Shown piece after piece: positions 698 to 22,691 of a DNA stretch of 23,003 nt. Every line of letters begins with the position of its first letter. Positions within the stretch are counted from its first letter, which is position 1. The translations under genes were made by a program, and so were the position numbers. A model generated the notes under the pieces. That model saw only the letters and a program-made list of their open reading frames with translations, searched no databases and had not been told where the DNA came from. The stretch is from a virus: IMG/VR virus record IMGVR_UViG_3300005293_000053, positions 1 to 23,003 of that record, one strand, 5' to 3'.

Positions 698-1087
698 ATG
701 GCAGACAGCATTCTCGACTCGGTGAAGGCAACACTCGGAATCGAGGCCGACGACCCGTCGTTCGACCGCGAGCTCATCATCTACATCAACGGCGTCTTCA
801 CGAAGCTCACGCAATTGGGCATCGGTCCAGGTCTCGAGAAGCCCAGCACGATCGGCTACAAGATCCAGGACAAGGAGAACGACTGGATGGAGTTCCTTCC
901 ACCCACGATGCTCCTCGAGTCCGTCAAGACGTTCATGTACCTCAGCGTTCGGCTCGTGTTCGATCCGCCGTCTACCTCCTATGGGATCGCCGCCATGAAG
1001 GAGCAGATCGCGGAGCACGAGTGGCGCCTCAACGTGCAGCGAGAGGAGGCAACATGGACCAGTCCGATCCCCTCGACACCGTTCTAG
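698..1087 (+). CDS. Head-tail connector protein (gp6-like)
   Basis: This 129-residue protein starts at an ATG preceded by a strong SD (AAGGAGGTGA, 683-692). The N-terminal part (SILDSVKATLGIEADDPSFDRE) followed by helices with INGVFTKLTQLGIGP and the later VRLVFDPPSTS...EWRLNV region match, from memory, the gp6-like head-tail connector family of siphophages. These proteins form a ring below the portal and help close the filled head. Most of the fold is helical, as expected. It is unusual that the gene lies upstream of the terminase; in most siphophages it follows the capsid gene. Its 3' end overlaps the next gene by 34 bp. The last residues after EEATW look like low-information tail sequence. 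The family call is by recognition of motifs, not by a search. Confidence 0.7.
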   Translation: MADSILDSVKATLGIEADDPSFDRELIIYINGVFTKLTQLGIGPGLEKPSTIGYKIQDKENDWMEFLPPTMLLESVKTFMYLSVRLVFDPPSTSYGIAAMKEQIAEHEWRLNVQREEATWTSPIPSTPF

Positions 1088-1542
1088 CGCACTTCGGCGT
1101 CAAGGGCATGAGGTGGGGGCAGCGCAAGAAGGGCACGGGCAAGCCCAGCTCCCACAAGAAGGGTGATGGGCCCAAGTCGGCTGACGCCGAAGAGGCTCAC
1201 GGCAACAAGGCGAGGGCCAAGGAGAAGGGTGTCCACACTCTCTCCAACGCTGAGCTGAAGAAGGTCAACGAGCGTCTCAACCTCGAGCAGAACTACGCTC
1301 GAATGACGCAGGAGAAGACCAAGCTCGACAAGGGACACAACGCCGTCAAGGTGGCGCTCGGTCTCGTCGGCACGGCAGCTTCTGTGTACACCGCGCTCAA
1401 CAGTCCGATGTTCAAGGCGGGCAAGGCTTTCCTCAACGCGCAGATGGAAGGCGCGTTCGACGCTGCGATCCCGAACGGTTCCGGTGTTCACCGAGCCGTC
1501 AAGGTCGCGGCTGCCGCCGCCGGCCCCAAGCACCGAGCATAA
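1054..1542 (+). CDS. Small virion-module protein with HFGVKGMRWG tag (copy 1)
   Basis: The start is taken at ATG 1054 because GAGAGGAGG (1041-1049) sits just upstream; an in-frame GTG at 1021 has no SD. The product is 162 residues. Residues 13-22 read HFGVKGMRWG, followed by a Lys-rich, polar stretch (about 23-62), a charged helical segment (TLSNAELKKVNERLNLEQNY, about 62-81) and a hydrophobic Ala/Val-rich C-terminal third (about 97-157). Phage proteins beginning with an H-x-G-[VI]-K-G-M-[KR]-W-G motif occur widely near terminase and portal genes, but I know no established function. The charged helix followed by a hydrophobic tail could be a head-interior or scaffold-like protein; that is inference. 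Two further genes in this window (3301-3699 and 3696-4091) carry the same tag, while the rest of the three proteins differs. Confidence 0.75.
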   Translation: MDQSDPLDTVLAHFGVKGMRWGQRKKGTGKPSSHKKGDGPKSADAEEAHGNKARAKEKGVHTLSNAELKKVNERLNLEQNYARMTQEKTKLDKGHNAVKVALGLVGTAASVYTALNSPMFKAGKAFLNAQMEGAFDAAIPNGSGVHRAVKVAAAAAGPKHRA

Positions 1543-1558
1543 GAAGGGAGGATCAGCG

Positions 1559-3304
1559 ATGAGTTTGTCGAACACTGCGACTCCGATCTACTACGGCCGG
1601 TTTCGTGACGCGGTAATTCGCGGAGAGATTCCAGTCAACAAAGAGATCGCAATGGAGATGAATCGCATCGATGATCTCATCGCTGATCCGAACTTCTACT
1701 ACGACGATCTAGCCGTCGAGGGCTTCGTGAAGTACTGCGAGGCCGAACTCACTCTCACGGATGGAAGTGATCTTCATCTCCTTGACTCGTTCAAGGTGTG
1801 GGCCGAGCAGATCTTTGGTTGGTACCACTTTGTGGAGCGTAGCGTCTACGTCCCGTCGGAAGACGGCTCGACAGGCCACTACGTCCGCAAGCAGATCAAG
1901 AAGCGACTGGTCGTAAAGCAGTACCTGATCGTCGCGCGCGGGGCAGCCAAGTCGATGTACGCCGAATGCATCCAGGCGTTCTTCCTCAACGTCGACACGG
2001 CAACCAGTCACCAGATCACGACTGCCCCAACCATGAAGCAGGCGGACGAGGTTATGTCCCCTTTCCGTACTGCGATCACCCGGGCCCGAGGCCCCCTGTT
2101 CAAGTTCCTCGTGGCTGGCTCCATGCAGAACACGACCGGCAATCGCGCCGATCGTCAGAAGCTGGCGTCCACCAAGAAGGGGATCGAGAACTTCCTTACC
2201 GGTTCGCTGCTCGAGGTCCGGCCTATGAGCATCAACAAGCTCCAGGGTCTGCGGCCTAAGATCTCAACAGTCGATGAGTGGCTGTCTGGCGACGTTCGAG
2301 AGGACGTTGTCGGTGCGATCGAGCAGGGAGCCTCCAAGCTTCAGGACTATCTGATCGTCGCGATCTCTTCAGAGGGAACGGTCCGCAACGGATCGGGCGA
2401 CACAATCAAAATGGAACTCGCCAGCATTCTTCGTGGCGACTACATCGCTCCGCACATCTCCATCTGGCACTACAAGCTGGACGATGTGCAGGAAGTCAAC
2501 GATCCGTCGATGTGGTTGAAGGCCAACCCGAACCTTGGGAAGACCGTCACCTACGAGACTTACCAGGAAGACGTCGAACGCGCTGAGAAGGCGCCTGCTA
2601 CTCGGAACGACATCCTCGCCAAGCGGTTTGGGATTCCGATGGAGGGCTTCACCTACTTCTTCACCTACGAAGAGACGCTGCCTCACCCGCGGCGCTCCTT
2701 CTGGAAGCTTCCGTGCGCACTCGGCGCGGACCTTTCCATGGGTGACGACTTCTGTGCATTCACATTCCTCTTCCCGCGCGGCAATGGAACTTTCGGCGTC
2801 AAGACACGAAGCTACATCTCGTCTCTGACCCTCATGAAGCTTCCTGGCGCTATGCGTCAGAAGTACCAGGAGTTCCTCGACGAAGGCAGCCTCTGCGTTC
2901 TCGAATGCACGGTTCTAGACATGATGGAGGTGTATGACGACCTCGATCTGTACATCCAGAGCCAGCAGTACGACGTCCGTTCTCTCGGTTTCGACCCTTA
3001 CAACGCCAAGGAGTTCGTGGCTAGGTGGGAGACCGAGTATGGCCCGTACGCGATCGAGAAGGTCATCCAGGGAGCGCGCACTGAGTCCGTTCCTCTAGGT
3101 GAGTTGAAGGCGCTTGCTGCAGAGCGGTACCTTCTGTTCGACGAGGAGCTGATGTCGTTCGCCATGGGTAATGCGATCACGCTCGAAGACACCAACGGAA
3201 ACCGCAAGCTCATGAAGAAGCGTGCAGACGCGAAAATCGACAACGTGTCCGCGCTCATGGACGCCTATGTCGCCTACAAGCTCAACAAGGAGGCGTTCGA
3301 ATGA
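1559..3304 (+). CDS. Terminase large subunit
   Basis: ATG at 1559 follows the SD AAGGGAGGA and gives 581 residues, usual for the family; an upstream in-frame start at 1484 lies inside the previous gene. The ATPase domain shows a Walker A-like loop (IVARGAAKS, about 124-132), Walker B (ISTVDEW, about 235-241) and a coupling motif (AISSEG, about 268-273). The nuclease domain shows the expected acidic residues: D391 in GADLSMGDD, D479 in LGFDPYNA and D568 in NVSALMDAY. The protein would power DNA packaging through the portal and cut concatemers. The residue before the Walker A lysine is Ala, not the usual Gly. No small terminase subunit is visible in the window. The gene overlaps the next by 4 bp (ATGA). 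Confidence 0.95.
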   Translation: MSLSNTATPIYYGRFRDAVIRGEIPVNKEIAMEMNRIDDLIADPNFYYDDLAVEGFVKYCEAELTLTDGSDLHLLDSFKVWAEQIFGWYHFVERSVYVPSEDGSTGHYVRKQIKKRLVVKQYLIVARGAAKSMYAECIQAFFLNVDTATSHQITTAPTMKQADEVMSPFRTAITRARGPLFKFLVAGSMQNTTGNRADRQKLASTKKGIENFLTGSLLEVRPMSINKLQGLRPKISTVDEWLSGDVREDVVGAIEQGASKLQDYLIVAISSEGTVRNGSGDTIKMELASILRGDYIAPHISIWHYKLDDVQEVNDPSMWLKANPNLGKTVTYETYQEDVERAEKAPATRNDILAKRFGIPMEGFTYFFTYEETLPHPRRSFWKLPCALGADLSMGDDFCAFTFLFPRGNGTFGVKTRSYISSLTLMKLPGAMRQKYQEFLDEGSLCVLECTVLDMMEVYDDLDLYIQSQQYDVRSLGFDPYNAKEFVARWETEYGPYAIEKVIQGARTESVPLGELKALAAERYLLFDEELMSFAMGNAITLEDTNGNRKLMKKRADAKIDNVSALMDAYVAYKLNKEAFE

Positions 3305-3699
3305 GCGAAGTCGATAATTTCCTCGCGCACTACGGCGTGAAGGGGATGCGCTGGGGGCACCGGAAGCCTGATGACTCTGGCGGCGCTGCGCCCAAGAAGC
3401 GTTCTCGCAAAGAGCTTCGCGCGGTGAACAAGGCCGGTCGTGAGAAGTTCAACCAGGATCGAGCCGACAAGGTGCTCGGGGCGGCGCTGAAGAAGGGCGA
3501 TGGCGTGCTGATCAAGACGCACATGCCCTACGACCAGTACCCCACGATCATGAGCGGGAAAGAGTTCACGACATATCTCTCTCGCGGGGGCGCGTTCGAC
3601 ATCCGGATGACGGACATCTACGCGACCAAGGACGAGAAGGCCGGCACCTACGTCCTCAACGACCAGCCCACCGAGCGATACAAGAAGGTGAAAGCATGA
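3301..3699 (+). CDS. Small virion-module protein with HYGVKGMRWG tag (copy 2)
   Basis: This 132-residue protein starts inside the terminase stop (ATGA). Residues 10-19 read HYGVKGMRWG, preceded by an acidic nine-residue leader (MSEVDNFLA). A basic stretch (KKRSRKELRAVNKAGREKF, about 32-50) follows, then a compact mixed alpha/beta-looking region with TYLSRGGAFDIRMTDIYATKDEKAGTYVLND (written with gaps here: TYLSRGGAFD, IRMTDIYATK, GTYVLND). No hydrophobic membrane segment is seen. Outside the tag it does not resemble copy 1 or copy 3. The tight coupling to terminase and portal suggests a packaging or head-assembly role. I do not recognise the C-terminal domain. Confidence 0.75.
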   Translation: MSEVDNFLAHYGVKGMRWGHRKPDDSGGAAPKKRSRKELRAVNKAGREKFNQDRADKVLGAALKKGDGVLIKTHMPYDQYPTIMSGKEFTTYLSRGGAFDIRMTDIYATKDEKAGTYVLNDQPTERYKKVKA

Positions 3700-4091
3700 C
3701 ATCCATGCGTGAAGTCGAAGAGGGTCTCGCCCACTACGGGGTCAAGGGCATGCGGTGGGGCACGCGCCACAACAACACCCGTGACTACAACGGCAAGGAC
3801 TACGCCCGAGACGTCAACCAGTACGGATCTCGCGGAGCCAAGCGCATCGAGGCCCACGTCCAGGGTGGCCGGACCATCGGCAAGGCCCGTAGCAAGGAGT
3901 TCCGGCGGCAGACGGGTCAGGTTGCCGCAGTGGCTGCCGTAGGGCTTGGTCTGACGGTGCTTCCCGGCCTTCTGAAGACCGGAGCTGCCAGCACGCTCAA
4001 TCGTCGACAGGCGAAGGCCGCTGACTGGGAGAACCTGCAGAAGCTCATGGACAAGACCGCGCTCACATCCTACAAGACGCTCGTCCTGTAG
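3696..4091 (+). CDS. Small virion-module protein with HYGVKGMRWG tag (copy 3)
   Basis: The gene overlaps the previous one by 4 bp (ATGA) and encodes 131 residues. An internal ATG at 3705 is a possible later start, but GAAGGTG just upstream of 3696 supports the first. The tag HYGVKGMRWG is at residues 13-22 after an acidic leader (MTSMREVEEGLA). A basic, Arg/Asn-rich region follows (TRHNNTRDYNGKDYARDVN), then KARSKEFRRQ, a hydrophobic segment (about 75-98, QVAAVAAVGLGLTVLPGLL) and a basic amphipathic tail. The hydrophobic segment is long enough to cross or sit in a membrane, which would fit an internal head protein released into the host. That role is speculation. The portal follows after 35 bp. 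Confidence 0.75.
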   Translation: MTSMREVEEGLAHYGVKGMRWGTRHNNTRDYNGKDYARDVNQYGSRGAKRIEAHVQGGRTIGKARSKEFRRQTGQVAAVAAVGLGLTVLPGLLKTGAASTLNRRQAKAADWENLQKLMDKTALTSYKTLVL

Positions 4092-4126: not shown

Positions 4127-5413
4127 ATGGTGGTCAGCATTGGCGGAAGGCTCAAGCACGCTTGGAACGTCTTCTTTGGACGAGACGATGAGCTCCGGAT
4201 GGACTATATTCCGGTAGCGAACTACGGTTCTCGTCCCGATCGACTGCGAATGTCGTTCTCGAGCGAGAAGACGTTCATCTCGTCCATCTACACGCGTATT
4301 GCTATCGATGTGGCAGCGATCACGATGAAGCATATTCGTGTGAACGAGAACGGTCAGTACGTCGAGACCATCGACAGCGGACTGAACAACTGCTTGACCG
4401 TCGAGGCCAATATCGACCAGGCCGCTCGGGCGTTCAAGCAGGATCTCGTCTTGACGATGCTCGACAAGGGCGTCATCGCCGTGGTTCCGGTCGACGTGTC
4501 GATCAATCCGAAGACGTCCGGAAGCTACGACATCCAAACGATGCGTGTCGGAACGATTGTGCAGTGGTACCCGGAGCACGTGCGGGTGAGCCTGTACAAC
4601 GTGAAGACTGCGAAGCGTGAAGAGGTCACGGTTCCCAAGGCGTCGACGGCAATCATTCAGAACCCGCTGTACGAGGTGATGAACGAGCCGAACTCGACTC
4701 TTTCTCGGCTCATCCGGAAGCTCACGCTCCTTGATGCAGTCGACGAGGCGTCCAACGCCGGGAAGCTCGACATCATCATCCAGCTGCCTTACGCGGTCAA
4801 GTCCGAGACGCGTGAGCAGCAGGCCGAACAGCGTCGTGCGGCAATCGAAAAGCAGCTCAGTGGGGCCCGGACCGGTATCGCCTACATCGACGGCACCGAG
4901 AAGATCACCCAGCTGAACCGGCCGGCCGAGAACAACCTCATGGCCCAGATCGAGTACTTGACCGACATGGTCTACGCCCAGTTGGGTCTGACGAAGTCAG
5001 TCTTCGACGGCACTGCCGACGAGAAGACCATGGTCAACTACCACAACAGGACTATCGAGCCGATCCTCACCGCAGTGGTCGAGGCCTTTGCTCGTACGTT
5101 CCTCACCAAGACGGCACGCACCCAGCTTCAGACGGTTGGGTTCATCCGTAACCCCTTCAGCCTGGTCGCTACGGCAGATCTTGCCGAGATCGTGGACAAG
5201 TTCACTCGTAACGAGATCCTTTCGTCCAACGAGGTTCGTGGCATCATCGGATTCGCCCCTTCCAAGGACGCGAAGGCTGACGAGCTCCGCAACAAGAACA
5301 TCCCGGAGCCAGACCCGCAGGTCGAGTCGATGAAGCAGCCTCGCAAGGCTATCGACATCGGTCCAGTGGACCTGAAGCAGATCGAACCCCCTCCGAAGCA
5401 AGCCGCGAACTAG
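4127..5413 (+). CDS. Portal protein (HK97/SPP1-like phage portal family)
   Basis: ATG at 4127 is preceded by a near-perfect SD (AAAGGAGGTGA). The 428-residue product has the portal features: an N-terminal segment with FFGRDDELRMDY, the helical SSIYTRIAIDVAAITMKHI region, a central beta-rich domain with VQWYPEHVRVSLY, and the helical core with NNLMAQIEYLTDMVYAQLGLTKSVFDG (about 269-295 when read through) and a NYHNRTIEPIL helix. The C-terminus is Pro-rich and polar. Twelve copies form the ring through which DNA enters and leaves the head. Its place between the terminase and the protease-capsid gene is canonical. Confidence 0.92.
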   Translation: MVVSIGGRLKHAWNVFFGRDDELRMDYIPVANYGSRPDRLRMSFSSEKTFISSIYTRIAIDVAAITMKHIRVNENGQYVETIDSGLNNCLTVEANIDQAARAFKQDLVLTMLDKGVIAVVPVDVSINPKTSGSYDIQTMRVGTIVQWYPEHVRVSLYNVKTAKREEVTVPKASTAIIQNPLYEVMNEPNSTLSRLIRKLTLLDAVDEASNAGKLDIIIQLPYAVKSETREQQAEQRRAAIEKQLSGARTGIAYIDGTEKITQLNRPAENNLMAQIEYLTDMVYAQLGLTKSVFDGTADEKTMVNYHNRTIEPILTAVVEAFARTFLTKTARTQLQTVGFIRNPFSLVATADLAEIVDKFTRNEILSSNEVRGIIGFAPSKDAKADELRNKNIPEPDPQVESMKQPRKAIDIGPVDLKQIEPPPKQAAN

Positions 5414-5435: not shown

Positions 5436-7394
5436 ATGGTACCCAATTTCAGTGGTTGGGCCACCGTCGCGGGCGTCAAGTGCGCTGACGGTCGCACGAT
5501 CATGAAGGATGCGTTCAAGCACCAGGACAAGGTGCGAGTTCCGCTGATGTGGCAGCACCAGGACGACTCTCCGGAGAACGTTCTCGGCTACGCCATCCTC
5601 GAGCACCGCGAGCAGGGTGTCTACACCCAGGCGTGGTTCAACGAGACCCCGGCGGGACAGAACGCGCGCGCCCTCGTCGAGCACGGGGACATCACCAACC
5701 TCTCGATCCGGGCCAACAACCTGGTCGAGAAGAACAAGAACGTGATGCACGGCAACATCCGGGAAGTCAGCCTCGTGCTGGCCGGTGCCAACATCGGCGC
5801 GTTCATCGACAACGTCAACCTCGAGCACGGCGAGAGCGACGACCAGCCCATCGAGGAGGCCATCATCTACACGGGACAGCCGCTCTCGCTCTCGCACGCC
5901 GAGGACGACAGCAACGACGAGACCGTTCAGGACGTCTACGACTCCATGAACGACAAGCAGAAGAACGTGGTTGCGTTCCTCGTTGGCGAGGCGCTCGAGA
6001 GCGTCCAGCACAGCGACGACAGCGACGACATCACCGGCGACGCCTCGGGCGACGACCAGAACGACGACGACGCCACCGGCGACGACGACAACATCGAGCA
6101 CAGCAACCAGAAGGGCACCATCGTGACCAACGTCTTCGACCGCACCGACGAGAACCGCGCCGGCGGCGGCACCCACCTGTCCCACGCCCAGCTGATGACG
6201 ATCGTCGGCGACGCGAAGAAGTCCGGCTCCTTCAAGGAGGCGTTCCTCGCCCACGCGGACGAGTACGGCATCACCAACATCGAGATGCTGTTCCCGGACG
6301 CCACGCTGGTCCAGAACACGCCCGAGTGGATCACCCGCCGGATGGAGTGGGTCGGCCCGGTGCTCAACGGCGCCCGCCACCTCCCGTACTCGCGCATCAA
6401 GACCCGCACCGCGGACCTGACGCACGAGGAGGCCCGTGCCAAGGGCTACATCAAGGGCAACCTGAAGAAGGAGCAGTTCTTCGCGATCGCCCAGCGTGAG
6501 ACCACGCCCAAGACGATCTACAAGAAGCAGAAGCTCGACCGTGACGACATCATCGACATCACGGACTTCGACATCGTCGCCTGGATCTGGCAGGAGATGC
6601 GGTTCATGCTCAACGAGGAGATCGCCCGTGCGATCCTCGTGGGCGACGGCCGTGAGGTGGACGACGAGGACAAGATCGACGAGACCAAGATCCGTCCGAT
6701 CGCGTTCGACGACCAGTTCTACACGGACGTCGTCGTCATCCCCAACGCCACGACTGCCGCGGACACGGTCGACCTGATCATCCGTGGTCGTGACAAGTAC
6801 CTCGGTGCTGGTGACCCCACGGCCTTCATGACCCGGGCGACCTACAACGACTTCCTCCTCATCAAGGACGGTCAGCAGCGTCGTCTGTACAACAACCGTG
6901 CGGACGTCGCGGCGGCGCTCGAGGCCAGCTCCATCGTCCTCGTCCCGATCCTCGAGGGCGTCAAGACGGACGACGGCGACCTGCTCGTCATCTTCGTCAA
7001 CATGTCGGACTACGCGATCGGTACGGACAAGGGTGGCCAGATCACCACGTTCGACGACTTCGACATCGACTACAACCAGTACAAGTACCTGATCGAGGGT
7101 CGCCTGTCGGGCGCCCTGATCTCGCACAAGACCGCTCAGGTCATCGTCCGCGGCCCGGCCACGGCGCAGACCAAGGTCACCCCGACGGCTCCGACCTTCG
7201 TCGTGGCCACGGGCGTCACCACCATCCCGACCAAGACCGGTGTGGTCTACAAGGACGGCGCGGGCACCACGCTCACCGCCGGCCCGCAGGCTGCCATCGC
7301 GTCGGGCGCGACCATCGAGATCGTCGCCTCGCCGGCGGCGGGCTACGTGTTCCCGCACGGCACCGACGAGGACTGGTCCTTCACGCGCGCGTGA
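5436..7394 (+). CDS. Prohead protease - major capsid protein fusion with C-terminal accessory domain
   Basis: One 652-codon frame starts after a GAAAGGA SD. Residues 1-125 are an HK97-type (S78) prohead protease: the His in MWQHQ (H41), the Ser in NLSIR (S90) and the Glu in REVSLV (E110) fit the conserved positions. An acidic linker rich in Asp (about 157-222) follows. Residues about 227-575 look like an HK97-fold capsid protein (VFDRTDENRAGGG, then EWITRRMEWVGPVL, FDIVAWIWQEMRFMLNEEIA and a C-terminal FDDFDIDYNQYKYLIEGRL part). Residues 580-652 form a small beta-rich domain with TIPTKTGVVYKDG and SPAAGYVFP motifs, similar to the tail of the 8045-8905 protein. The single frame means protease and shell are made in equal amounts and must be separated, presumably by self-cleavage near the linker. 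Codon use is strongly biased to C-ending codons, as expected for the most abundant virion protein. Confidence 0.9.
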   Translation: MVPNFSGWATVAGVKCADGRTIMKDAFKHQDKVRVPLMWQHQDDSPENVLGYAILEHREQGVYTQAWFNETPAGQNARALVEHGDITNLSIRANNLVEKNKNVMHGNIREVSLVLAGANIGAFIDNVNLEHGESDDQPIEEAIIYTGQPLSLSHAEDDSNDETVQDVYDSMNDKQKNVVAFLVGEALESVQHSDDSDDITGDASGDDQNDDDATGDDDNIEHSNQKGTIVTNVFDRTDENRAGGGTHLSHAQLMTIVGDAKKSGSFKEAFLAHADEYGITNIEMLFPDATLVQNTPEWITRRMEWVGPVLNGARHLPYSRIKTRTADLTHEEARAKGYIKGNLKKEQFFAIAQRETTPKTIYKKQKLDRDDIIDITDFDIVAWIWQEMRFMLNEEIARAILVGDGREVDDEDKIDETKIRPIAFDDQFYTDVVVIPNATTAADTVDLIIRGRDKYLGAGDPTAFMTRATYNDFLLIKDGQQRRLYNNRADVAAALEASSIVLVPILEGVKTDDGDLLVIFVNMSDYAIGTDKGGQITTFDDFDIDYNQYKYLIEGRLSGALISHKTAQVIVRGPATAQTKVTPTAPTFVVATGVTTIPTKTGVVYKDGAGTTLTAGPQAAIASGATIEIVASPAAGYVFPHGTDEDWSFTRA

Positions 7395-7744: not shown

Positions 7745-8033
7745 TCTCCAGAACCTTCTGGAGTTTCTCGCGGGACACCGGCGTGTATATTTCCAGTCAC
7801 CGGGCGCCGAAAGGATGGCTTACCCTGCCATCGTCTACACACGCGATGGCCGGGTGAACCAGTTCGCAGACAACGCTCCTTACGCAACTAAGAAGCGTTA
7901 TCAGGTGACGATCATTGACCCGATCGCTGACAGCGAGTTGGTCGACAAGATCGCAGCTCTGCCTCTGTGCACCTTTGTGCGATATTTCGAGACAGAGGGC
8001 CTGCACCACGACATCTACAGCCTCTACTTCTGA
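7728..8033 (+). CDS. Tail terminator / tail-completion-like protein
   Basis: ATG at 7728 is chosen because GGGAGGT ends 7 nt upstream; a GTG at 7719 overlaps that SD. The 101-residue product (MAQRVDLQNLLEFL..., VYFQSPGAERMAYPAIVYTRD, KKRYQVTIIDP, DKIAALPLCTFVRYF) has the helix-strand-strand plan of tail terminator and completion proteins, which cap the tail tube and join it to the neck. The family resemblance is from memory of similar proteins directly upstream of tail tube genes. It overlaps the preceding gene and is followed after 11 bp by the tail tube gene. Confidence 0.6.
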   Translation: MAQRVDLQNLLEFLAGHRRVYFQSPGAERMAYPAIVYTRDGRVNQFADNAPYATKKRYQVTIIDPIADSELVDKIAALPLCTFVRYFETEGLHHDIYSLYF

Positions 8034-8044
8034 AAGGCACCACA

Positions 8045-8905
8045 ATGACTCAGCTCACCTGGGACGGTGTTGGCGAGCGTCGGTTCGAGACCGGCGTGGA
8101 CCACGGCGTCCTCTACATCCCCACCGATGGGGTCTACGACCTCGGCGTGGCCTGGAACGGTCTCACCACCGTCACCGAGTCGCCGTCGGGTGCCGAGGCC
8201 CAGCCGCAGTACGCGGACAACATCAAGTACCTGAACCTCATGTCGGCCGAGGACTTCGGCGCGACGATCGAGTGCTTCACGTACCCGACCGAGTTCGAGC
8301 AGTGCGACGGTTCGGCCTCGCCGACGCCGGGCGTCACGATCGGACAGCAGAACCGCAAGTCGTTCGGCTTCTCGTACCGCACCCTCGTCGGCAACGACAC
8401 CGAGGGCACGGACCACGGGTACAAGCTGCACCTCGTCTACGGCGCCCTCGCGGCCCCGTCGGAGAAGGCCCGCAGCACCGTCAACGACTCCCCCGAGGCG
8501 GTCACGTTCAGCTACGCGGTCACGACGACTCCGGTCGCCGTCCCGGGCTACAAGCCCTCCGCCACGCTGACGATCGACTCCACCGAGGTCGACGCGGACG
8601 CCCTGGCGGCGCTCGAGGCGATCCTCTACGGCACGGAGGGCGCCGACCCGCGTCTCCCCCTGCCCTCCGAGGTGTTCACGCTGTTCGACAGCAGCATCAC
8701 CGTGGCCGAGACCGTCACGCCGGGCTTCGCGGCCAACGTCATCACCATCCCCACGGTGACCGGCGTGGTCTACAAGATCGGCAACGCCATCAAGACCGGC
8801 GTCCAGCCGGCCATCACGAAGGACACCGTCGTCAAGGCCAGCCCGGCTTCCGGGTACACCTTCACGCCGGAGTCCGACACCAGCTGGACCTTCAACTACA
8901 GCTGA
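8045..8905 (+). CDS. Major tail tube protein with C-terminal accessory domain
   Basis: ATG at 8045 follows a GAAAGG SD after the tail-completion stop; an in-frame start at 7967 lies inside that gene. The 286-residue product has a tube-protein body (about 1-215, MTQLTWDGVGERRFETGVDHG, W-N-G-L-T-T-V-T-E-S, ATIECFTYPTEFE, SYRTLVGND, YKLHLVYGALA, LYGTEGADPRLPLPSEV) and a beta-rich C-terminal domain (about 216-286) with TIPTVTGVVYK and SPASGYTF, related to the end of the capsid fusion protein. Codons are as strongly C-biased as in the capsid gene, fitting high expression. Two paralogues follow at 9509 and 10153; those lack this codon bias, so this copy is taken as the main tube protein. Confidence 0.88.
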   Translation: MTQLTWDGVGERRFETGVDHGVLYIPTDGVYDLGVAWNGLTTVTESPSGAEAQPQYADNIKYLNLMSAEDFGATIECFTYPTEFEQCDGSASPTPGVTIGQQNRKSFGFSYRTLVGNDTEGTDHGYKLHLVYGALAAPSEKARSTVNDSPEAVTFSYAVTTTPVAVPGYKPSATLTIDSTEVDADALAALEAILYGTEGADPRLPLPSEVFTLFDSSITVAETVTPGFAANVITIPTVTGVVYKIGNAIKTGVQPAITKDTVVKASPASGYTFTPESDTSWTFNYS

Positions 8906-9508: not shown

Positions 9509-10144
9509 ATGACGCGAGTTACATGGGGCGATGCCGGCCAGCGCTTCTACGAGGCAGGTGCCGATCGCGGAGTTCTCTACGTCGGTGACAATGCTGGCGT
9601 GCCCTGGAACGGACTGACCGCTGTCAGAGAGAGTCCTTCTGGCGGTGAGCCGCAGCCGTACTACCTCGACGGGTACAAGTACATCAACCTCGCTGCCGCA
9701 GAGGAGTTCGAGGCGACGATCGACGCGTTCTCGAGCCCTGCGGCATTCGGTGTGTGCGATGGGACTGCAAGCGTCGCCAACGGGTTGTTCATCACCCAGC
9801 AGCGACGCCAGGAGTTCGATCTGTGCTACCGCACCGCCATCGGGAACGACGTCGACGGTCTGGACCACGGCTACAAGCTTCACCTGGTCTATGGCGCCCT
9901 CGCAAAGCCGGCCACACGCAACAACAGGTCGCTGAACGACACGCCAGAGCCGATCGGTCTTAGCTGGGCCATCACCACGGCTCCTCCGAGGATCGACGGC
10001 TATCGCCCGACCTCCCACATGGTCGTGGACTCTCGCAGCACGCCTCCCGAGCTGCTGGTCGAGCTCGAGGATTTGCTGTACGGAACGGAATTCACCGACG
10101 CGGTGTTGCCTGCGCAAGCAGACCTCATCGAGATGTTCGCATAG
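9509..10144 (+). CDS. Tail tube protein paralogue 2 (short form)
   Basis: The gene follows a strong SD (GAAAGGAGG) and encodes 211 residues. It aligns by eye along its length with the body of the 8045 tube protein: TRVTWGDAGQRFYEAGADRGVLY, VPWNGLTAVRESPSGGEPQPYY, EEFEATIDAF, YRTAIGNDVDGLDHGYKLHL, VYGALAKPATRNNRSLNDTPE and LEDLLYGTEFTDAVLPAQADLIEMF. It stops where the accessory domain begins in the major copy. Codons are less C-biased than in the major copy, suggesting a lower-abundance product. It may form a special ring or segment of the tail, replace the main protein in part, or be a domesticated duplicate. The gene lies between the chaperone and the tape measure, where tube genes are not usual. 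Confidence 0.85.
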   Translation: MTRVTWGDAGQRFYEAGADRGVLYVGDNAGVPWNGLTAVRESPSGGEPQPYYLDGYKYINLAAAEEFEATIDAFSSPAAFGVCDGTASVANGLFITQQRRQEFDLCYRTAIGNDVDGLDHGYKLHLVYGALAKPATRNNRSLNDTPEPIGLSWAITTAPPRIDGYRPTSHMVVDSRSTPPELLVELEDLLYGTEFTDAVLPAQADLIEMFA

Positions 10145-10152
10145 GGGTCCTC

Positions 10153-10944
10153 ATGGCCAGAGTGATGTGGGACGCCGTCGGTGAGCGAAAGTTTGAGGCC
10201 GGCGTCGACCGAGGGGTTCTATATCCTTCGTTCGACTTCGGAGTGGGGTGGAGTGGCCTCGTCGAGGTTAGCGAAACTGCCGACGATCTGAACGAGACGA
10301 TCACATATTTCGACGGAGAGGTGCTCTCGAACCGATTGGCGCTGAGCAGTTTTGCAGCCACGATCGAGGCGATCACATATCCTGTCGAGTTCGAACCCTT
10401 CGACGGGTTTGACGAGATCGTAGGGGGTCAGGAGCGGCAGACCTTCCACTTCAGCTACCGAACCATGCTCGGGACCGATATTTCGACAGACGGGTACCGG
10501 CTACACCTCGTGTACAACGCGTTGGCCAAGCCTACTGCCCGGAACTACTCCTCGATTGACCCCTCGAACAGCGTTATGGCGCTCTCTTGGGATATTTCGA
10601 CGACTCCGGTTCCGTTCTACAACTCTCCGCTGTCGAAGTACCCGCCACGGGCCAGTGCACACATATTTATGGACTCAACCACGGTCAACCCCGAGATTCT
10701 TGCGGAGATCGAGCACATCCTGTACGGCGATGACCTGATCGATCCTCGGATTCCGTCGGCGTCAGAGATTCTCGATATTTTCGAGCCGTACGAGGTGTTC
10801 AAGATCATCGACCATGGGGACGGCACCTTCACCGCCATCGGTCCAGACGACATGGTGTACCTCACCTCGCCCACCGAGTTCGTTCTGTCTTCGCCGTCCG
10901 TAGTGATGGTCAGCTCGGACACGTACAAAGCCAGCAGCTACTAG
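10153..10944 (+). CDS. Tail tube protein paralogue 3 with different C-terminal domain
   Basis: The gene starts 8 bp after paralogue 2 (SD AGGGG) and encodes 263 residues. The body shares ARVMWDAVGERKFEAGVDRG, VLYPSFDFGVGWSGLVEVSE, FAATIEAITYPVEFEPFDG, HFSYRTMLGTD, YRLHLVYNALAKPTARNYSS and LYGDDLIDPRIPSASEI with the other two. The C-terminal domain (about 213-263) is unlike that of the major tube protein: it has FKIIDHGDGTFTAIGPDDMV and a short strand-rich end. A G-D-G-T-F/W-x-x-x-G-P-D-D domain like this occurs, from memory, at the end of other actinophage virion proteins. Seven-base-level codon use is mixed with several ATATTT hexamers (see findings). The role is likely structural in the tail; which part is unknown. 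Confidence 0.83.
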   Translation: MARVMWDAVGERKFEAGVDRGVLYPSFDFGVGWSGLVEVSETADDLNETITYFDGEVLSNRLALSSFAATIEAITYPVEFEPFDGFDEIVGGQERQTFHFSYRTMLGTDISTDGYRLHLVYNALAKPTARNYSSIDPSNSVMALSWDISTTPVPFYNSPLSKYPPRASAHIFMDSTTVNPEILAEIEHILYGDDLIDPRIPSASEILDIFEPYEVFKIIDHGDGTFTAIGPDDMVYLTSPTEFVLSSPSVVMVSSDTYKASSY

Positions 10945-21419: not shown

Positions 21420-21425
21420 TGGGGG

Positions 21426-21458
21426 CTCGCGAGTAAAACACGCCTTGTAATGAAACCC
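21426..21458 (+). promoter_or_regulatory. Promoter-like element C (CTCGCGAG ... TGTAAT)
   Basis: The palindrome CTCGCGAG starts at 21426 and a TGTAAT -10-like box lies at 21446-21451, followed by GAAACCC. The spacing (20 nt from CTCGC to the box) is the same as in elements A, B and D. No TTGACA-like -35 box is seen 17 nt upstream. It is the only gap of note between the holin and the 21477 gene. Confidence 0.6.
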
Positions 21459-21476
21459 TCTTAGCAAAGGAGACCC

Positions 21477-21764
21477 ATGTCAAAGACCCCCGATACCACC
21501 AGCCCCAAGGTGACCGCCGCTCTGAACAAGGCTCTGCTCGAGCTCGAGAACTACCCCGCACACTCCAAGGAGTACGCCGAGATCGTCAAGCAGATTGTCG
21601 AGCTCCACAAGCTTCACGCCCACAAGCGTGATTACTTGGTGAGCCCTGACACTCTCGTGACGGTCGGAGCGAACCTCCTCGGGATCGTGGCCATTCTCAG
21701 CTTCGAACAGACCCGCGTCATCGCGACGAAAGCCCTCGGCTTCGTGGCCAAGGTCAAGATCTGA
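21477..21764 (+). CDS. Small conserved membrane protein of unknown function
   Basis: ATG at 21477 follows CAAAGGAGACCC. The 95-residue product has a charged helical N-terminal half (LNKALLELENYP, AEIVKQIVELHKLHAHKRDY), a VSPDTLVTVGANLLG segment leading into one hydrophobic stretch (about 59-76), and a basic end (ATKALGFVAKVKI). From memory, the S-P-D-T-x-x-x-x-G-x-N-L-L-G-I motif is common in small phage proteins next to or near holins. Its function is unknown. It has its own upstream element C and is followed by the strong terminator at 21788, so it closes the late region and could also be expressed separately. Confidence 0.78.
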   Translation: MSKTPDTTSPKVTAALNKALLELENYPAHSKEYAEIVKQIVELHKLHAHKRDYLVSPDTLVTVGANLLGIVAILSFEQTRVIATKALGFVAKVKI

Positions 21765-21787
21765 CAACCCCGCAAGATATTCAGAAG

Positions 21788-21828
21788 GGGAAGGCACTGT
21801 TACCCATTACACAGTGCCTTCCCTTTTT
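21788..21828 (+). terminator. Strong intrinsic terminator at the end of the late operon
   Basis: A 13-bp perfect stem (GGGAAGGCACTGT at 21788-21800 with ACAGTGCCTTCCC at 21811-21823) closes a 10-nt loop and is followed by five T. This is the best terminator in the window. It ends the long co-oriented structural gene block. Confidence 0.92.
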
Positions 21829-21899
21829 GCCTCTCGCAAGTCATACATCGCATCTCAATTTTTCCCCGGGAGGGTATTTTCCACAAACAATCCATATGC

Positions 21900-21934
21900 C
21901 CTCGCAAGATTTACGGGGCCTATAATGAAACCCC
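21900..21934 (+). promoter_or_regulatory. Promoter-like element A (CTCGCAAG ... TATAAT)
   Basis: CTCGCAAG starts at 21901, a perfect TATAAT lies at 21921-21926, and GAAACCCC follows. The 35 bases 21900-21934 are identical to 22214-22248 (element B). It precedes the 21962 gene by a leader of about 30 nt. No usual -35 is seen. Between the late terminator and this element (21829-21899) is a half-copy (CTCGCAAG at 21833) without a -10 box and no gene. Confidence 0.7.
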
Positions 21935-21961
21935 ATTCACCTTCCAAACAAGGAGACCCTC

Positions 21962-22171
21962 ATGGACACCAACGACACCACCGTCGCGAACACCGAGAAC
22001 TCTGTCATTGCGAAGGAGATCGCCGTCATGGTGATCGCGACTGTTGCAGTTACCGCTGCCACCTTCGCGACCATCGGCGCGCTCTCCATCGCTCTGACGA
22101 GCCTCGACGACCGCCTCGCTGCCCGTCGCCAGGCCAAGCTGGACGCCAAGAACGAGAAGAAGAAGCACTGA
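21962..22171 (+). CDS. Small membrane protein, cassette 1
   Basis: ATG at 21962 follows AAGGAGACCC. The 69-residue product has a polar Thr/Asn-rich N-terminus (MDTNDTTVANTENS), one long hydrophobic segment (about 18-47) and a strongly basic tail (RLAARRQAKLDAKNEKKKH). This looks like a single-pass protein with a basic cytoplasmic tail. The gene has its own promoter-like element (A) and its own terminator. The layout matches that of the next gene, whose N-terminus is also MD, Thr/Asn-rich and acidic. No family is recognised. Lysis timing, exclusion of other phages or a host-membrane role are possible, none proved. Confidence 0.72.
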   Translation: MDTNDTTVANTENSVIAKEIAVMVIATVAVTAATFATIGALSIALTSLDDRLAARRQAKLDAKNEKKKH

Positions 22172-22175
22172 TTTC

Positions 22176-22211
22176 AAGGCCCGAAATACCCTCACACGGT
22201 ATTAGGGCTTT
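22176..22211 (+). terminator. Intrinsic terminator of cassette 1
   Basis: The stem pairs GCCC with GGGC (22179-22182, 22205-22208) and AATACC with GGTATT (22185-22190, 22198-22203), with a small internal loop and a CTCACAC loop. Flanking AAG/TTT pairs extend it, and it ends in TTT. A near-identical copy lies at 22496. Confidence 0.8.
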
Positions 22212-22213
22212 GG

Positions 22214-22248
22214 CCTCGCAAGATTTACGGGGCCTATAATGAAACCCC
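22214..22248 (+). promoter_or_regulatory. Promoter-like element B (CTCGCAAG ... TATAAT)
   Basis: It is identical over 35 bases to element A, with CTCGC at 22215-22219, TATAAT at 22235-22240 and GAAACCCC after it. It begins just after the terminator of cassette 1 and precedes the gene at 22271. Confidence 0.7.
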
Positions 22249-22270
22249 CACCTCACAGTTAGGATCAATC

Positions 22271-22477
22271 ATGGACAACACCACGAACGAGACCGAGACC
22301 ACCGAGGCCACCAAGAACACCGTTCTTCTCTACACCGCCACCGCGCTCGCCGTCGTGGGTGCAGCTGTGGTCGTCACCAAGACGATCCGCTACGCCTCCG
22401 CCGTCGCCACGGTCGTGAAGCAGAAGAAGGCGCTCAAGGCGGCCGAGGCTCCCGAGCTCACCGTCGTTGCCAACTGA
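22271..22477 (+). CDS. Small membrane protein, cassette 2
   Basis: ATG at 22271 follows TTAGGATCAATC. The 68-residue product has an acidic Thr-rich N-terminus (MDNTTNETETTEATKN), a hydrophobic segment (about 17-36, TVLLYTATALAVVGAAVVV), a basic part (KTIRYASAVATVVKQKKALK) and a short neutral end. It mirrors the cassette 1 product in size and plan but the sequence match is weak. It is flanked by element B and by the terminator at 22496. No family is recognised. Confidence 0.72.
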   Translation: MDNTTNETETTEATKNTVLLYTATALAVVGAAVVVTKTIRYASAVATVVKQKKALKAAEAPELTVVAN

Positions 22478-22495
22478 CCCCTGCAAGACAGGTTC

Positions 22496-22531
22496 AAAGC
22501 CCGAAATACCCTCACACGGTATTAGGGTTTT
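22496..22531 (+). terminator. Intrinsic terminator of cassette 2
   Basis: It has the same AATACC/GGTATT helix and CTCACAC loop as the terminator at 22176, with AAAGCCC pairing to GGGTTTT (22496-22502 and 22525-22531). The flanking base differs between copies but pairing is kept (G-C changed to G-U), which suggests selection on the hairpin. Confidence 0.8.
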
Positions 22532-22532
22532 G

Positions 22533-22560
22533 CCTCGCGAGAAAAACACGGTGTGTAATG
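22533..22560 (+). promoter_or_regulatory. Promoter-like element D (CTCGCGAG ... TGTAAT)
   Basis: CTCGCGAG starts at 22534 and TGTAAT lies at 22554-22559 with the same 20-nt spacing as elements A-C. It directly follows the terminator of cassette 2. Unlike A-C it leads into about 190 nt with no gene before the ATG at 22754. Confidence 0.6.
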
Positions 22561-22691
22561 AAGAGAGTCGCTATATGCGATCTGAGACACGAATGTGTAG
22601 GTTAGAATCCTACCCAGAGTGGCAGCACGCACCGAACAGCTGCTTAACGAACTCCGGTTTAGTTGGCCGAGTTACCTCTCTTCTCATTTTT
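22560..22691 (+). ncRNA. Candidate structured RNA or long structured leader
   Basis: No convincing gene is seen in 22560-22753. The stretch can fold into several helices: TCGC/GCGA (22568-22571 with 22577-22580), ACAC/GTGT (22587-22590 with 22595-22598), GTAGG/CCTAC with a 7-nt loop (22597-22613, exclusive with the ACAC/GTGT helix by two bases), GCAGC/GCTGC (22622-22643) and AACTC/GAGTT (22650-22673). GAAGAGAG (22560-22567) pairs with CTCTCTTC (22676-22683) and would close them all, followed by ATTTTT. This could be a small RNA ending at 22691. A caution is that a start 6-7 nt after the TGTAAT box would remove most of the closing 5' strand. It could instead be the 5' leader of the 22754 gene. 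Confidence 0.35.

Follow-up and report, generated by a model that had tools for sequence, protein, structure and literature searches.

Phage T4, MuF phages, and some of the jumbo phages are known to deliver head proteins together with their DNA, and to our knowledge the head-borne proteins of most siphoviruses cannot be predicted from sequence. Here, we analyzed DUF7211 (PF23847), a short tag shared by three otherwise different proteins of the virus record IMGVR_UViG_3300005293_000053, a complete IMG/VR record of 23,003 bases that was studied over its whole length (the window) and whose left third is the head module. By analogy, this element is probably an N-terminal capsid-targeting sequence that works like the one of phage T4.

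The capsid-targeting sequence of T4 comprises 10 to 19 residues at the N terminus of otherwise different head proteins (IPI, IPII, IPIII, and Alt), whose bodies, among them an ADP-ribosyltransferase and an anti-restriction protein, diverge or are swapped while the leader stays (PMC9026906). DUF7211 resembles it in being short, N terminal, and common to different bodies, as well as in being encoded beside a head with a prohead protease (phrog_3270 was present in all 37 of 37 tag-first virus records). On the other hand, there is no evident sequence relation between the two, T4 being compared here by its published description only, and DUF7211, which belongs to siphovirus-type heads whose protease and capsid protein are fused, is found on up to 9 genes per genome, in part at internal positions or in repeats.

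MuF proteins and polymorphic toxins (SPP1 gp7 and Mu gpF) are the second group to be compared, MuF being the element that usually carries effectors in phage heads. The passages of PMC5576092 and PMC5512222 that deal with them describe a carrier in the head module with exchangeable effectors, as well as ADP-ribosyltransferase, 2H, and toxin domains joined to MuF or portal domains in other phages. DUF7211 is likewise a carrier element with effector domains near the portal and terminase genes. However, MuF is a folded domain of ca. 110 residues, usually found in one gene just downstream of the portal, while DUF7211 has ca. 20 residues, many copies, and a location upstream of the portal. In addition, MuF (PF04233) was detected in none of 42 tag-bearing records nor in the record of the window, with positive controls matching. 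Polyvalent phage proteins, according to the relevant passages of Iyer et al. (2017), are head-packaged multidomain effectors, some of them fused to portal or MuF; they are recognized by their effector domains, and a short shared targeting tag is not described in those passages.

Three tagged proteins in the window

The preliminary description of the window had reported one N-terminal tag on three proteins encoded around the terminase gene, which was confirmed. The tagged genes and the tag cores (coordinates refer to the window) are as follows.

1054..1542, + strand: P0001, tag (residues 11-24, core 13-22) and conserved core body; gene between connector and terminase
1090..1119, + strand: tag core HFGVKGMRWG of P0001, residues 13-22
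3301..3699, + strand: P0002, tag and accessory body
3328..3357, + strand: tag core HYGVKGMRWG of P0002, residues 10-19
3696..4091, + strand: P0003, tag and accessory body with hydrophobic segment
3732..3761, + strand: tag core HYGVKGMRWG of P0003, residues 13-22

The string LAH[FY]GVKGMRWG is common to the three proteins, always inside the first 24 residues and after a short acidic stretch. The DNA pattern of the tag occurred three times in the window, in all cases on the + strand, and was absent from the reversed control of the window. A looser form of the motif, H.G[VIL].G..WG, appeared on average 0.003 times per shuffled window, while it was present in 993 of 64,628 frames of related loci and in none of these frames when the proteins were read backwards. 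Codon comparison also bore out that the DNA under the three tags differs at synonymous sites (GGC/GGG, GTC/GTG, and AGG/CGC/CGG). All three proteins matched DUF7211 (42.3, 51.7, and 39.2 bits for P0001, P0002, and P0003, respectively), above the curated gathering score of 27 bits, and their tags also matched ca. 14 PHROG families that have the tag in common and differ in their bodies.

Outside the tag the bodies diverge, as had been claimed. Alignments of P0001 with P0002 and of P0002 with P0003 were confined to the tag, and the match between P0001 and P0003 was tag driven. The P0001 body is helical, with the pattern 'LS..EL......R..LE..Y' (its ATG is preceded by a Shine-Dalgarno-like GAGAGGAGG), and in the AlphaFold model of this protein the helices cover residues 43 to 85 with a predicted local distance difference test (pLDDT) score of ca. 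94 to 97, the tag lying outside the folded part (pLDDT of ca. 50 to 63). The pairwise alignments and this model exclude the case in which the motif is simply part of one homologous full-length fold. A fold search with the P0001 model retrieved uncharacterized phage proteins only, including ReqiPepy6 gp013, and a profile search found no recognizable effector domain on P0001, P0002, or P0003 themselves.

The motif is already cataloged in Pfam, as a 25-residue family to which no function is assigned there. A literature search found no paper containing the peptide strings of the tag or the name DUF7211, and a modular address tag of a lineage devoid of MuF, as the sequences suggest it to be, was not found in the literature searched.

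Linkage to one head lineage

The motif search across phage genomes that the preliminary description had proposed, counting copies and fused domains, gave 1 to 9 copies per genome on many bodies. A search of the INPHARED phage collection found the tag in ca. 245 records at ca. 940 places, mainly in phages of Arthrobacter, Gordonia, and Streptomyces, with further carriers among phages of Lactococcus, Curtobacterium, Rhodococcus, Microbacterium, Faecalibacterium, and Bifidobacterium. DUF7211 had 1 to 9 copies in each of 42 large records and was found in 0 of 14 control genomes. Viral contigs were scanned with two types of the tag, HFGVKGMRWG and HHGIxGQKWG, the match numbers from both being "at least" values. 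The locus set comprised 555 loci and 1,067 open frames with the tag, whose consensus of ca. 20 residues reads acidic-LxH[HYF]G[VI]KG[MQ][KR]WG[VI]R[RK]. In 89% of these frames, the first tag started no later than residue 40. Two to four tags were present in 60 frames, and the tag was also encountered far inside a chain (at residue 337 or more), with a domain on either side.

The tag is bound to one head lineage, which is defined by a fusion of the S78 prohead protease with the major capsid protein. The head genes around the tagged genes of the window are the following.

698..1087, + strand: head connector (PF24829, E value of 1.5e-30), 5' border of the tagged-gene interval
1559..3304, + strand: terminase large subunit (TerL; phrog_9, E value of 1e-104)
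4127..5413, + strand: portal protein, candidate partner, 3' border of the tagged-gene interval
5436..7394, + strand: prohead protease (S78)-major capsid fusion (phrog_3270, E value of 2.9e-218), candidate partner and lineage marker

Starting from the capsid gene, the tag was present in 257 of 271 capsid-first loci with at least 5 kb of upstream sequence and, after strict removal of redundancy, in 45 of 50; the loci without the standard tag include divergent forms, e.g., HYGKKGM. Counted per genus, the phage records with the tag were as numerous as those with the capsid fusion (Arthrobacter, 95; Gordonia, 55; Streptomyces, 54; Lactococcus, 13; Curtobacterium, 7), and the portal tallies by genus matched this picture. 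The exception was a set of 21 Streptococcus records with the capsid domain only, at ca. 22% identity, and without the tag. Bacterial genomes pointed in the same direction. Among 299 host genomes drawn evenly from one bacterial family, DUF7211 was found in 4 and phrog_3270 in 6, all 4 being within the 6 (hypergeometric P of 5e-8, or 2e-6 without the center genome), and the tags were located ca. 3 to 8 kb upstream of the phrog_3270 gene on the same strand.

Position was equally constrained. In loci with a capsid gene, all 858 tags were on the capsid strand (0 opposite) and 854 of the 858 were upstream of the capsid gene. The share of tagged frames was 55% between connector and TerL and 71% between TerL and portal, as opposed to 0.5% in the portal-capsid interval and 0.1% over the 6 kb that follow the capsid gene.

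Tagged bodies and the evolution of the tag

In 209 of 272 distinct genomes, a member of the P0001 family occupies the slot between connector and TerL. P0001 thus represents a conserved core family in this virus, and P0002 and P0003 are accessory: for P0002, 8 tagged homologues were found, mostly between TerL and portal, and for P0003, 12 were found. BLAST with a loose cutoff divided the bodies into 327 clusters (one large and 238 single), a figure that depends on this cutoff and is not a count of unrelated bodies.

Effector domains on the shared carrier were present in related genomes. They include GNAT acetyltransferases (L006:10206-12077 and L189), papain-fold glutamine deamidases (Gln_amidase; L091, L130, L137, and L386), an ADP-ribosyltransferase (ADPrib_exo_Tox), and 2H phosphoesterases. 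Phages of Gordonia and Rhodococcus have a 2H phosphoesterase domain that is followed by the tag and then by the core body. Two chains involve the portal itself, L240:7309-8961, a portal with a C-terminal DUF7211, and L386:4707-6842, in which portal, tag, and papain-fold glutamine deamidase form a single chain. As for a link with anti-defense, PADLOC gave one marginal match on 100 bodies. In Lactococcus phage 1706, with the same gene order, gp07 carries two tags and is labeled 'structural protein' in GenBank. This label, which reportedly goes back to mass spectrometry in the 2008 paper on this phage, was the one direct hint we found that a tagged protein may be part of the virion.

These bodies bear on the first alternative, namely, that the tag binds the terminase or packaging motor and that the tagged proteins are packaging cofactors in the producing cell. 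The tagged genes do lie on both sides of terL. However, toxin-type and host-modifying enzymes without an evident role in packaging are found among the bodies, the tag also occurs at the C terminus of the portal, and gp07 of phage 1706 is annotated as structural, so we consider this explanation unlikely.

We then compared the tags with the bodies that carry them. If the tag were merely carried along with its body, homologous bodies should hold the most similar tags, and this was not what we observed. Tags on unrelated bodies within one genome were 79.6% identical, compared with 69.6 to 75.3% for tags on homologous bodies (20 to 60% identity) of different genomes and 69.9% for random pairs. In 45 genomes the within-genome identity was the greater one, and in 15 it was the smaller (P of 1.3e-4). 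Arthrobacter phage Qui provides an extreme example, in which the consensus K has been lost in all nine tags (replaced by M, Q, L, or A). The tag was still ca. 70% identical where homologous bodies were down to 20 to 30%. Tags of one genome either adapt to one partner or exchange sequence, and either case requires a common function. Their likeness within a genome is what these sequence comparisons would be expected to give if one partner reads all tags.

The same data speak to a second alternative, in which the tag is a relic of gene duplication from one ancestral tagged protein, kept by descent and without a common partner. Gene families can duplicate in place, and single-linkage clustering does gather many of the bodies, as basic and helical proteins, in one large group. 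Given that the tag outlasts the similarity of the bodies and tracks the genome rather than the body, that clearly unrelated enzyme folds are found among the bodies, and that frames may hold two to four tags, such an origin appears improbable, to a degree slightly greater than that of the terminase explanation.

Candidate docking partners, a second tag, and minor features

The comparative data agree best with a docking or cargo signal, because the bodies number in the hundreds, the linkage to the head lineage is strict, the tagged genes are placed upstream of the capsid gene, the tags follow the genome, effector-type enzymes are among the bodies, and portal, tag, and effector can be fused. The computed support thus comes from modularity, copy number, head-lineage linkage, position, tag evolution by genome, and the kinds of bodies. 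The preliminary description had proposed such a signal to one head partner for all three proteins of the window; the signal is retained as a probable one, but the three are not cargo of one kind, because the product of the gene at 1054 is a near-universal core component and the other two are rare accessory bodies.

If the tag is a capsid-targeting sequence, this flexible segment of ca. 20 residues would dock on one internal site of the head during procapsid assembly, a site that may belong to the S78 protease-capsid fusion head. The P0001-type core protein and a changing accessory set (here P0002 and P0003) would then be enclosed in the head, and at least the enzyme-bearing tagged proteins could exit with the DNA into the host. 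DUF7211 would play, in this lineage without MuF, the role that the capsid-targeting sequence has in T4 and the MuF domain elsewhere. As a first guess the dock may be the protease-capsid fusion, because it is the sole feature marking the lineage, and next the portal. Should the tag indeed be an address label, DUF7211 would allow virion content to be predicted for hundreds of phages that infect Actinobacteria and gut Firmicutes, would flag new candidate host-takeover and anti-defense proteins, and would provide an easily tested way to bring reporter proteins into phage heads.

Several observations weigh against a capsid-targeting sequence. An enzyme domain cannot be recognized in most of the bodies, including those of P0002 and P0003. 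Linkage cannot single out the partner because head genes travel together. No clear partner emerged from the covariation of tag positions +1, +3, +4, and +6 with columns of the capsid fusion, the portal, TerL, and the connector, computed for 178 genomes after removal of 0, 10, or 20 principal components. Finally, AlphaFold2 left the tag of the L240 portal-tag fusion undocked (pLDDT of 35 to 42), in a model of the monomer with few tag-bearing rows. By sequence, the PDB contained no relative of the tag, the capsid fusion, or the portal.

Two of these results also count against a third alternative, in which the tag is a portal-docking peptide that places a few copies on the inner portal crown, like SPP1 gp7. 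It is favored by the two genomes in which the tag is fused to the C terminus of the portal, by the two-thirds of tagged-gene intervals that end at the portal gene, and by a mild excess of portal columns among the residues tracking tag position +3. Nevertheless, the covariation signal is weak, the tag was undocked in the AlphaFold2 model, and the portal would have no need of a tag of its own; we regard portal docking as possible but doubtful, and still the least improbable of the alternatives.

Very unlikely, in our opinion, is a peptide that serves only as protease recognition site or propeptide, cut by the S78 protease without docking. The tag may be internal or at the portal end, up to four copies are found per chain, and a frequency table around the tag revealed no conserved cut site. 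The protease is always present in the lineage, and the propeptides of T4 do both jobs (PMC9026906). In a capsid-targeting sequence, cleavage by the S78 protease may also take place.

A second N-terminal tag, ca. [FL]LxHYxSxYYDPVKAHEYYLRxRxLKGR, was observed in 78 frames of related loci and is absent from the window. Between the portal and the capsid fusion lay 58 of the 78 frames (examples of this tag are L005:23341-23988, L006:14848-15450, L007:17559-18335, L471, and L344), and in 6 it was fused to the portal, at the C termini of L170, L213, L363, L377, L410, and L415. None of the 78 frames had DUF7211 on the same chain, and three examples had no Pfam match. Tentatively, and with somewhat less conviction than we grant to portal docking, the lineage may use two address tags, each directing its own cargo to another place or layer of the procapsid; DUF7211 cargo would then come from genes between connector and portal and second-tag cargo from genes between portal and capsid or from portal C-terminal fusions.

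Some minor features were also observed. The C-terminal domain of the capsid fusion (window positions 7209-7394) is homologous to that of the first tail-tube-like protein (8729-8905), with 44% identity over 62 residues (E value of 6e-10), and weak matches to the end of phrog_3270, located ca. 1.5 kb downstream in other records, point to the same sharing of the domain there. Three tandem paralogues with 38 to 48% identity are located at 7967-8905, 9509-10144, and 10153-10944, a slot that holds two annotated major tail proteins in related phages. In gut-type contigs (records G005-G037, e.g., G025, G010, and G011), several matches to the capsid fusion span one or more in-frame TAG, TGA, or TAA codons, which may reflect match overrun, frameshift, or stop-codon reassignment. 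Repeated intergenic elements are found at window positions 21422-22562, one type, centered around CTCGCAAGATTTACGGGGCCTATAATGAAACCCC and containing a TATAAT box, in four copies and a 40-nucleotide unit in two; they precede frames of small membrane proteins and are probably repeated promoters.
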